In this document: piece after piece, positions 43,911 to 48,088 of the stretch
How positions within the stretch are numbered: the first letter of the stretch is position 1
How the letters are laid out: every line of letters begins with the position of its first letter
Assembly: GCF_014646075.1 (NCBI RefSeq)
Contig: NZ_BMMT01000001.1
Location: 459,930-523,929, forward strand
Length of the DNA: 64,000 nucleotides
Reading direction: 5' to 3'
Origin: Saccharopolyspora thermophila
GTDB lineage: Bacteria; Actinomycetota; Actinomycetes; Mycobacteriales; Pseudonocardiaceae
Program-made: the position numbers and the translations under genes
The notes under the pieces: generated by a model
What the model saw: the letters and a program-made list of their open reading frames with translations, nothing else
The model's database searches: none
What the model was told of the DNA's origin: nothing

Positions 43911-44050
43911 CACTCCACCAGGCATCCCGATCTCGACCGGGCACGCCGTGTTGTCCTGAAGTAACCATGAGCACAGGTTGCCGGCGCTGATCACCTGCTC
44001 GCCAGGTAGTCCACTCGAACTAGTGAACGAATGTTCTGGTGGTGCGCGGT

Positions 44051-44081
44051 GCCTTCACCCCGGGAGACCCGAGGTGAAGGC
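44051..44081. terminator. Hairpin between convergent Nudix and trpS genes
   Basis: GCCTTCACC and GGTGAAGGC (9 bp) enclose a further CGGG/CCCG stem around AGA. It lies between two converging genes and probably stops transcription from both sides, although there is no T-run. Confidence 0.55.
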
Positions 44082-44107
44082 GCGCTCGCCTCGCGAGACG
44101 CTCGCGG

Positions 44108-45073
44108 TCAGCGCAGGCCCGTCACGCGGAGGGCGGCCTGCAGGCGGGGCTGGGCGCGGTCGCGGGCCCGCTTCGCTCCCCGGCTCCGGACCCGGTCCAG
44201 TTCCGCCGGGTCGTCGAGCAGCTCGCGGGCCCGCTCGCGCACCGGCCGCAGCTGCTCGATCACCGCCTCCGCCACCACTTCCTTGAGCTCCGCGTAGGTG
44301 CCGGCGGCGCTGGCCGCGGCGTACGGGCTGATGTCGTTGCAGGCGGCGAGGATTTCCAGCAGGTTCGCCCCGCCGGGGCGGGTGTCCGGCTCGTAGCGGA
44401 CGTCATCCAGGCCGTCGGTGACCGCCCGCCGGAACTTGCGGCGGATCACGTCGGGCTCGTCGAGCACGAACACCACGCCGGGCGACTGCAGGGTGGACTT
44501 CTCCATCTTGCGGCCGGGATCGGACAGGTCGCGGATCCGCGCCGCGGTCTTGGGCACCACGGCCCGCGGGACCGCGAACACCTCGCCGAAGGCGGCGTTG
44601 AACCGGCGCGCGAGCGTGCGCGCCAGCTCCACGTGCTGGTCCTGGTCGCTGCCCACCGGCACCTCGGTCGCGCCCTGCAGCAGGATGTCCGCGGCCATCA
44701 GCACCGGGTAGGTCAGCAGGCCCACCCGCACCGAGTGCTGCCCGGCGCCGCGGTCCTTGAACTGGGTCATCCGCGCGGCCTCGCCGAAGCCGCAGGTGCA
44801 CTCGAGGATCCAGTTGAGAGCGCCGAGCTCGCCGGCCAGGTCGGACTGGACGAACAGCGAGTCCGGATCGATGCCCGCCGCGAGCAGCACCGCGAACTGC
44901 TCCCGGGTGAGCGCGCGCAGCCGCTGCGGCCGGTGCGGCGTCGTCATGGCGTGCAGGTCGGAAACGAAGAACAGGTCCGCCGGTTCGCGTTCGGCCGCCC
45001 ACCGGCGCACGGCGCCGAGGTAGTTGCCGAGCTGCACGTGGCCGGACGGGGTGATCCCGGACAGGCGGGTCAT
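44108..45073 (-). CDS. trpS: Tryptophanyl-tRNA synthetase
   Basis: This 321-residue class-I synthetase charges tRNA-Trp. The HIGH-like motif is PSGHVQLGNY at residues 9-18 and the KMSKS-like motif is KMEKS at 189-193. ATG 45073 follows AGGAGCGACC. Its 5' leader encodes a Trp-rich peptide and alternative hairpins, so expression is probably raised when charged tRNA-Trp is scarce. That mode is known for an auxiliary, indolmycin-resistant TrpRS in Streptomyces. Whether this gene is the sole or an auxiliary TrpRS cannot be told from this window. Confidence 0.94.
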   Translation of the reverse strand: MTRLSGITPSGHVQLGNYLGAVRRWAAEREPADLFFVSDLHAMTTPHRPQRLRALTREQFAVLLAAGIDPDSLFVQSDLAGELGALNWILECTCGFGEAARMTQFKDRGAGQHSVRVGLLTYPVLMAADILLQGATEVPVGSDQDQHVELARTLARRFNAAFGEVFAVPRAVVPKTAARIRDLSDPGRKMEKSTLQSPGVVFVLDEPDVIRRKFRRAVTDGLDDVRYEPDTRPGGANLLEILAACNDISPYAAASAAGTYAELKEVVAEAVIEQLRPVRERARELLDDPAELDRVRSRGAKRARDRAQPRLQAALRVTGLR

Positions 45074-45127
45074 GGTCGCTCCTGGTGTTCTGGTGGCTGC
45101 CACCGGGATCGACCTCGTGCGCTGCGC

Positions 45128-45198
45128 GGCCGCCCGGTCGGGCGGCCAATGATCTGCGTGTCAGTGCACGATGCTGCCGAGCCGCCCCCAGGCGGCCC
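45128..45198 (-). promoter_or_regulatory. trpS attenuator: alternative hairpins after the leader peptide
   Basis: In transcript order there are four arms: arm 1 (45198-45191), arm 2 (45189-45181), arm 3 (45147-45140) and arm 4 (45135-45128). Arms 1:2 pair as GCCGCC/GGCGGC with loop TGGG. Arms 3:4 pair over 8 bp with a 4-nt loop. Arms 2:3 can pair over 7 bp (GGGCGGC/GCCGCCC), excluding the other two. Trp codons lie in or before arm 1 and in the 1:2 loop. No U-run follows 3:4, so the final step (termination or translation block) is open. Confidence 0.7.
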
Positions 45199-45214
45199 AC
45201 CACGTGTTCGACAT
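45161..45214 (-). CDS. Trp-rich leader peptide of trpS
   Basis: A 17-codon frame from ATG 45214 encodes MSNTWWAAWGRLGSIVH and ends in TGA at 45161-45163. Trp codons are at positions 5, 6 and 9. Three Trp in 17 residues directly ahead of a tryptophanyl-tRNA synthetase is the hallmark of ribosome-mediated attenuation. The proposed promoter gives a very short 5' end, so the leader may be translated almost leaderlessly. Confidence 0.8.
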   Translation of the reverse strand: MSNTWWAAWGRLGSIVH

Positions 45215-45229
45215 TGCGCGCACGCCGCA

Positions 45230-45260
45230 ATGTTACCGCTTGGTGATCGGCAGCAGTCAA
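45230..45260 (-). promoter_or_regulatory. Candidate trpS promoter
   Basis: On the minus strand, TTGACT (45260-45255) and TAACAT (45235-45230) are separated by 19 bp. The expected transcription start falls only about 8 nt before the leader-peptide ATG. The long spacer lowers confidence. Confidence 0.4.
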
Positions 45261-45282
45261 GTGGAAGGGCTACCGTGAAAGA

Positions 45283-45594
45283 ATGTTTGTAGTGCTGCTG
45301 CAATACACCGCGCCAGAATCGGATATCGACGCCCAACTGGTAGATCATTACGAATGGGTCACCCGGCATTACGACGCCGGTGACTTCATCGCGGCGGGCC
45401 ACCGGCACCCGCGCACCGGGGGCGTGATCATCGCCCGGGCGATGCCTCGCGGCAGGCTGGACGCGATCCTCGCGACCGACCCGTTCGCGCTGCACAAACT
45501 GGCACGGTACGAGGTCATCGAGTTCCAGGCGCTGCGCACCGTCCCGGAGCTGGCGAAGTACGCCGACCCGCTGACCTCGGCTGCGCGCAGATAG
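45283..45594 (+). CDS. YciI family protein
   Basis: This 103-residue protein has the YCII fold: a VVLLQYTAP N-terminus, a histidine in LVDHYEWVTRHY, an AAGHRHPRTGGVIIARAM core and DPFALHKLARYEVIEF. Family members use a His/Asp pair, and most are of unknown function. The gene is divergent from trpS and shares its 5' region. Confidence 0.88.
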   Translation: MFVVLLQYTAPESDIDAQLVDHYEWVTRHYDAGDFIAAGHRHPRTGGVIIARAMPRGRLDAILATDPFALHKLARYEVIEFQALRTVPELAKYADPLTSAARR

Positions 45595-45636
45595 CTCCGA
45601 CCGTGTCCGCGAGCCGCGGCGGGCGCCGCGGTGAGA

Positions 45637-45810
45637 TCATGTCGCGCTCTTTTTCTTCTTTGCCTCTTTTCGAGCCTTCTTTTGCGCTTTCTTGACCTCC
45701 TGGGCCTTGGCCTCGCGCAAAAGATCGCGAAGGACCACGATCGGGCAGCTCTTGCAGGGAGGTCGCGATCGACAGCATTTTTTCTTGACCTTTATGGTTC
45801 CTTTGCCCAC
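45637..45810 (-). CDS. Small Lys-rich protein with a four-cysteine motif
   Basis: A 57-residue frame from GTG 45810 has a basic start ([10 protein letters not shown]), a cysteine cluster [12 protein letters not shown] and a Lys/Ala helix ending KKKKSAT. The cysteine arrangement suggests metal or Fe-S binding. The unusual A-rich codon use reflects the lysine content. A putative DtxR/IdeR box overlaps its predicted -10 element. I recognise the pattern as a conserved small actinobacterial protein without a known role. It is divergent from typA. Confidence 0.7.
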
Positions 45811-46171
45811 GGTGGTTCTCTCGGTGTGCCGACGGGGGTTGGGCACAGGGTAGGCGAACCTAACCCGGAACGCGAACCTGATGTTGCTGCCGCCGGGGTG
45901 TTGCGCTCGGCACGCCGCGGTCGGTGCGGCGTCGCGTTGCACTACGCTGGACCGAGCCGCGCGTCGACTCGCGTGCCCCGCCACCGCGGGGTGCCGCACA
46001 ACAGCTCCGCAGCAGCGGCGCAGTGGAGCCGCGGCTCGGTCCGGCTGCGGGATCACCGCACCCGAGACCTCGCGGGCCGCCCCGCCCCGGGAACCCGCAG
46101 GTGCCCCGCTCGCGGTGCCCGCACGTCGACGAACGCCGCGCCCACTTCCGCGCCGAGCCAGGAGTACCCGC
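45811..46171. other. 361-bp intergenic region ahead of typA
   Basis: This stretch holds the promoter of the small Cys/Lys-rich gene on the minus strand and, presumably, that of typA on the plus strand. It contains two GCGAACCT direct repeats 18 bp apart (45854-45861 and 45872-45879). The first is part of the iron-box candidate. I see no convincing gene. The frame open upstream of typA has no start context. Confidence 0.5.
45845..45863. promoter_or_regulatory. Possible DtxR/IdeR iron box
   Basis: ACAGGGTAGGCGAACCTAA agrees at 15 of 19 positions with the IdeR/DtxR consensus TTAGGTTAGGCTAACCTAA, by eye. It lies 35-53 bp upstream of the small Cys/Lys-rich gene and covers its predicted -10 (TACCCT on the minus strand). 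Iron-dependent repression is inferred. Confidence 0.45.

Positions 46172-48088
<1,917 letters not shown>

Follow-up and report, generated by a model that had tools for sequence, protein, structure and literature searches.

Locus and tryptophanyl-tRNA synthetase genes

The analyzed window, a 64-kb stretch of the genome of the soil actinomycete Saccharopolyspora thermophila, carries on its minus strand a tryptophanyl-tRNA synthetase (TrpRS) gene that is preceded by a short tryptophan-containing reading frame. The main features of this region are:

44108..45073, minus strand: trpS, auxiliary tryptophanyl-tRNA synthetase, 321 aa (NCBIfam TIGR00233; clade placement)
45161..45223, minus strand: putative leaderless leader peptide ORF with GTG start, VRAMSNTWWAAWGRLGSIVH and stop, 20 codons (sequence, ortholog comparison, pattern search)
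45197..45202, minus strand: tandem Trp codons, putative sensor codons 8 and 9 (kept in 65/68 orthologs and in Streptomyces)
45230..45235, minus strand: putative -10 element TAACAT (TAnnnT 5-8 nt before the leader start in 67/68 orthologs)
45255..45260, minus strand: candidate -35 element TTGACT, 19 nt from the -10 element (sequence; TTGAC(C/T) in most close relatives)

The closest named relatives are Saccharopolyspora, the nearest of them with 83-89% protein identity, and a trpS of the window type is present in 14 of 22 genomes of this genus. An earlier note on this DNA had proposed a search for a second trpS, and two further genes were found. The host genome thus holds three TrpRS genes above the curated cut-off, namely a housekeeping type (C3), the window gene (C1) and a distant third type (C9). 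In a phylogenetic tree, the window protein, its Pseudonocardiaceae orthologs and the Streptomyces auxiliary TrpRS form one clade (support 100/98), which is separate from the actinobacterial housekeeping TrpRS; in the host genome the auxiliary enzyme of the window stands beside a housekeeping copy (G000:C3).

Auxiliary TrpRS makes Streptomyces resistant to indolmycin (PMC6804068; PMC3937824), and docking has placed a Gln of TrpRS next to indolmycin (PMC6450493). The window TrpRS and all Pseudonocardiaceae orthologs examined have Thr at this site, a replacement whose bearing on indolmycin resistance of the window enzyme is suggestive only. Housekeeping enzymes have the KMSKS signature; the motif is KMEKS in the window enzyme, KMGKS in Streptomyces auxiliary enzymes and either KMAKS or KMDKS in some relatives. 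Further upstream, a small Cys/Lys-rich ORF (45637-45810, minus strand, 57 residues) forms the C-terminal end of a longer reading frame and possibly encodes a conserved small basic protein.

A tryptophan leader upstream of trpS

Read on the minus strand, the leader is GTG CGC GCA ATG TCG AAC ACG TGG TGG GCC GCC TGG GGG CGG CTC GGC AGC ATC GTG CAC TGA, and its stop codon is followed by TGGCCGCCC GACC GGGCGGCCG. The earlier note had described a 17-codon peptide with Trp at positions 5, 6 and 9. An ORF does run from ATG 45214 to the stop at 45161 (MSNTWWAAWGRLGSIVH), with Trp at these positions; the proposed start and the third Trp fared less well. In 14/14 Saccharopolyspora orthologs the GTG is kept exactly 6 nt behind a TAACAT/TAGCAT box, whereas the internal ATG is replaced by TTG, TTC or ACG in some of them. 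This difference favors GTG 45223, nine bases upstream of the ATG, which is probably the true start of a 20-codon leader. From the spacing, the transcript most likely begins at or beside the start codon, that is, as a leaderless mRNA. A scan with the sigma-70 consensus gave no promoter on the leader strand, and the TAACAT box emerged from the comparison. The third Trp (codon 12) was considered as a sensor and rejected: it is not conserved, and a ribosome stalled there would mask arm 2 (see below).

A pattern consisting of a -10 hexamer, 6-8 nt, ATG/GTG, 4-9 codons, Trp-Trp and an early stop matched the 64-kb window once, exactly at the leader, and had no match in 20 shuffled windows. A search with the window protein gave 69 named-organism loci, 68 of which fall in the auxiliary clade, across Pseudonocardiaceae. 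A Trp codon occupies the sensor place in all 68; in 65 the pair is Trp-Trp, and the other three read Trp-Gln, Trp-Arg and Trp-Gln. In 67/68, a TAnnnT hexamer is followed at a distance of 5-8 nt by an in-frame ATG/GTG, which mostly precedes Trp-Trp by exactly 7 codons. The Trp leader precedes auxiliary trpS in 14/14 Saccharopolyspora orthologs and in 19 Streptomyces orthologs, and it is absent ahead of housekeeping trpS in Saccharopolyspora (0/16) and ahead of seven housekeeping-type actinobacterial trpS genes. These 19 loci of one large genus were taken as Streptomyces because their leaders read MTTRTCTQLWWAA, comparable to S. lividans trpL2 (MMTRTCTQLWRAA). The remaining locus of the search (L070, Armatimonadetes) has no leader and lies outside the auxiliary clade. 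A contig labelled Candidatus Melainabacteria (L059) encodes a pseudonocardial TrpRS, 67% identical, with the leader present; it is probably a mis-binned actinobacterial contig.

Mutually exclusive helices

Four GC-rich arms follow the Trp codons, in the order GGCCGCC / GGCGGCT / GGCCGCCC / GGGCGGCC in the window DNA:

45191..45197, minus strand: arm 1, GGCCGCC (pair counts, folding)
45180..45186, minus strand: arm 2, GGCGGCU (pair counts, folding)
45140..45148, minus strand: arm 3, UGGCCGCCC (pair counts, covariation, folding)
45127..45135, minus strand: arm 4, GGGCGGCCG, forming with arm 3 a terminator-like hairpin without a U-tract (covariation, folding)

The alternative pairings 1:2, 2:3 and 3:4 described in the earlier note are all present, with predicted energies of -15.3, -18.7 and -22.3 kcal/mol, and they exclude one another, as in an attenuator. 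Helix statistics were obtained from 57 distinct Pseudonocardiaceae leaders. Helix 1:2 is paired in nearly all cells. In the seven pairs of 2:3, 398 of 399 cells are paired and the only changes are between G-C and G-U; these changes are not above column shuffles, the near-invariant columns giving no covariation signal. Since arm 2 sits within coding sequence, this conservation of pairing is nevertheless notable. Helix 3:4 covaries: 43 cells are changed on both sides, compared with 23.1 +- 3.9 in shuffles (0/500 as high), and 88.6% of its cells are paired, compared with at most 54% in slid registers.

We folded the leader with codons 8/9 masked as by a stalled ribosome, which covers arm 1. Before arm 4 has been made, 2:3 is the minimum-energy fold; after arm 4 has been added, equilibrium favors 3:4 even under this mask. 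The folding model also permits 2:3 with the ribosome placed at the stop codon. Equilibrium folding alone thus gives no switch, so that the switch would have to be kinetic and depend on co-transcriptional order. The classical trp leader switch is kinetic as well.

A further helix at the 5' end

The leader's 5' terminus and the stretch that separates arm 2 from arm 3 are complementary and covary, which defines a candidate helix, P0:

45217..45223, minus strand: P0 5' strand, GUGCGCG, start codon included (duplex energies, partner permutation, alignment)
45164..45170, minus strand: P0 3' strand, CGUGCAC, end of the leader ORF (duplex energies, partner permutation, alignment)

The mean P0 duplex energy is -11.4 kcal/mol, compared with -9.9 +- 0.26 for partners exchanged among species and -7.0 for shuffled ones. 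The same tendency is seen in Pseudonocardiaceae other than Saccharopolyspora (-13.5 vs -11.0 +- 0.34; 0/200 permutations), in Streptomyces with two relatives (-15.4 vs -13.2 +- 0.41; 0/200) and in Saccharopolyspora (-17.2 vs -16.1 +- 0.54; 4/200). Examples include GCGUACGUG:CACGUAUGC and GCGCAUGUG:CACAUGCGC in Streptomyces, GUGUUCG:CGAACAC in Sciscionella and GCGGAUGA:UCAUCCGU in L128. Support for P0 comes from partner permutation and not from column-wise counts in the alignment. Register shifts from clade to clade and near-palindromic strands make such counts weak except in Saccharopolyspora. When the window sequence is folded alone, the minimum-energy fold pairs the leader 5' end elsewhere. 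No mention of a P0-like helix was found in the literature searched, from which Vecchione & Sello 2010 was excepted.

U-tract and Shine-Dalgarno region

The earlier note had pointed out that 3:4 lacks a U-run and had doubted simple termination, a doubt justified by the comparison. The eight bases after 3:4 contain 0-2 T in Saccharopolyspora, 3-5 in many Amycolatopsis and Pseudonocardia and up to 7 in Tamaricihabitans; the U-tract of an intrinsic terminator is lacking in the window and in all Saccharopolyspora examined. A U-tract is typical of trp-type attenuators and is not required in all actinobacterial cases. Terminators without a U-tract have been described in mycobacteria, although its dispensability is disputed; Rho-dependent termination dominates there, and NusG helps (PMC12288462). 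Given this lack in Saccharopolyspora, termination at 3:4 would be U-independent, or Rho-/NusG-assisted, or complemented by sequestration of the trpS Shine-Dalgarno sequence, for which two segments come into question:

45106..45114, minus strand: segment 5, GGUCGAUCC, tentative anti-Shine-Dalgarno strand (folding, ortholog comparison)
45074..45082, minus strand: segment 6, GGAGCGACC, most of the trpS Shine-Dalgarno sequence (folding, ortholog comparison)

Segment 5 (45114-45106) can pair with segment 6 (45082-45074). Across nine Saccharopolyspora leaders, the predicted unpaired probability of the Shine-Dalgarno sequence is 0.34, compared with 0.51 in shuffles; the values are 0.17 vs 0.44 in Streptomyces and 0.41 vs 0.47 in the others. 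In these models the trpS Shine-Dalgarno sequence may be partly sequestered, which would add a translational layer. Streptomyces auxiliary trpS leaders (L104-L123) have a pyrimidine run, UCUCCCUCC, just 3' of the terminator hairpin, which can pair with the purine-rich Shine-Dalgarno region; this is possibly an unreported translational layer.

Proposed mechanism and alternative explanations

The anatomy, conservation and covariation of the leader are observed directly. It is a real and conserved element, most probably functional, and very probably a ribosome-mediated Trp attenuator that controls this inducible auxiliary TrpRS gene. The promoter, leader translation, stalling and the off and on effects are inferred. 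The TAACAT promoter would start the transcript at or beside the GTG of the 20-codon leaderless leader. With ample Trp-tRNA, the ribosome would pass Trp-Trp and arm 1, or the translating ribosome itself, would keep arm 2 occupied, so that the 3:4 hairpin forms and trpS expression is stopped. When charged tRNA-Trp is scarce, through starvation or a TrpRS inhibitor, the ribosome would stall at codons 8/9, covering arm 1; arm 2 would then capture arm 3 while arm 4 is still to be transcribed, 3:4 would be blocked and trpS would be on. P0 would re-pair the 5'-terminal start region with the leader end and probably helps to keep an untranslated leader in the 1:2/3:4 (off) state. A more specific proposal is that P0 is a fifth element in attenuators of actinobacterial auxiliary TrpRS genes, by which the untranslated leader defaults to off, and that Shine-Dalgarno sequestration took the place of the U-tract lost in Saccharopolyspora. 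We regard this combination as unlikely; if true, Saccharopolyspora would be a lineage in which a transcriptional attenuator became translational.

The main alternatives concern how the off state is reached. In purely translational attenuation, the U-less 3:4 of Saccharopolyspora would no longer terminate, and the default GGUCGAUCC:GGAGCGACC pairing would hide the trpS Shine-Dalgarno sequence; on stalling, 2:3 would free the 3:4 loop and the start of arm 4 (ACCGGG) to pair with CCCGGU, opening the site. Such a model fits the uniform absence of the U-tract in this genus and the lowered unpaired probability, as well as the GGUC..UCC/GGA..GACC pairing, which nearly all of the 14 species preserve, G.A to G-C being one of the changes; the alternative 4:5 pairing changes from CCGGG:CCCGG to CCAGG:CCUGG in L086. 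However, the sequestration effect is moderate, with four of the nine leaders below the 10% level, the sequestering helix is lost in L011 and L012, the 4:5 alternative is based on few changes, and U-less terminators, although contested, have been described in mycobacteria. We consider this explanation possible but rather improbable. Rho-dependent control, in which leader translation rather than the hairpin would determine Rho access to RNA polymerase, stalling or completion altering how far a Rho entry site is exposed, would fit the missing U-tract and agrees with the mycobacterial precedent; but every lineage preserves arms 2, 3 and 4 through changes that keep the pairs, a constraint that Rho by itself would not require, and relatives possess U-tracts, making this reading quite improbable.

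Two further explanations would do without a peptide attenuator. In some Actinobacteria, tRNA-sensing T-boxes govern genes for aminoacyl-tRNA synthetases (PMC1262725), yet Rfam gave no family match in window positions 44000-46200 at E up to 1, and the leader is built like a peptide attenuator; a T-box or another known riboswitch is thus extremely unlikely. High-GC genomes are full of GC hairpins, and a short ORF might stand beside some of them by chance. We give such a coincidence practically no credence, since shuffled windows yielded no match and the arrangement is conserved across families and absent ahead of housekeeping paralogs.

Comparison with known systems

An attenuator of trpRS1 in S. 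coelicolor was reportedly demonstrated experimentally by Vecchione & Sello 2010, a study that is cited in PMC4787780. For S. avermitilis, a trpS2 attenuator was predicted by Seliverstov 2005 (PMC1262725). In S. lividans, RNA-seq and start-site mapping revealed trpL2 ahead of trpS, leaderless and with two hairpins and no U-rich stretch (PMC8079986). The earlier note had likened the locus to trp-operon attenuation placed on a tRNA synthetase gene and to the mechanism of a Streptomyces auxiliary TrpRS; the shared TrpRS clade, the same leader in Streptomyces orthologs and the transcript-mapped trpL2-trpS attenuator strongly support this reading.

The window system resembles the Streptomyces auxiliary trpS attenuator in its TrpRS clade, its putatively leaderless leader with 7-10 codons before Trp, its arms 1-4 of GGCCGCC/GGCGGCC make-up and a P0-type helix, and it shares with trpL2-trpS the missing U-rich stretch. 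The window leader is longer than that of Streptomyces, has a probable GTG start that is included in P0, and reaches its stop beyond arm 2, whereas the Streptomyces stop falls between arms 1 and 2; the Thr of the window TrpRS corresponds to Lys in most Streptomyces auxiliary enzymes and to Gln in housekeeping enzymes. Like trp operon attenuators (E. coli trpL; Streptomyces/Corynebacterium trpE), it combines tandem Trp codons, three exclusive pairings and a stalling logic, but it would regulate a synthetase instead of biosynthesis and from a leaderless transcript. S. lividans leuL, ilvL, thrL and trpL1 and the mycobacterial polycysteine ORFs are likewise leaderless ORFs with sensor codons, often without a U-tract, although their amino acids and downstream genes differ. 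The 5' end of Sinorhizobium meliloti trpL/rnTrpL also starts with the Trp leader start codon (PMC7298713); unlike the window system, that RNA controls trpE(G) and also acts in trans, and the sequences are unrelated.

The third TrpRS gene of the host (G000:C9, about 208420-208680; L145, L003) has a leaderless Trp-Trp leader of its own, VIPRACLAWWRSD, after TATCAT. A Trp-Trp leader precedes third-type trpS in 18/19 cases in Saccharopolyspora (L133-L150), mostly VIRSSCxAWWRSG. Ahead of trpE in the host genome, no Trp-Trp leader was found (TGGTGG or TGGnnnTGG in short upstream ORFs). Each of the two auxiliary TrpRS genes in this genome thus has a Trp leader of its own, and the housekeeping trpS and trpE have none, which raises the question of which inhibitor or starvation triggers each of the two.

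The putatively leaderless Trp leader travels with auxiliary TrpRS, extending the resistance-linked switch of Streptomyces to a whole family of other actinomycetes with many antibiotic producers. Dozens of natural variants, some with a U-tract and some lacking one, offer a series for studying how actinobacterial attenuators stop transcription or translation. Relative to the earlier note, the leaderless start is corrected and the P0 helix is added; the kind of switch is already known from Streptomyces, and Saccharopolyspora provides a new example of it.
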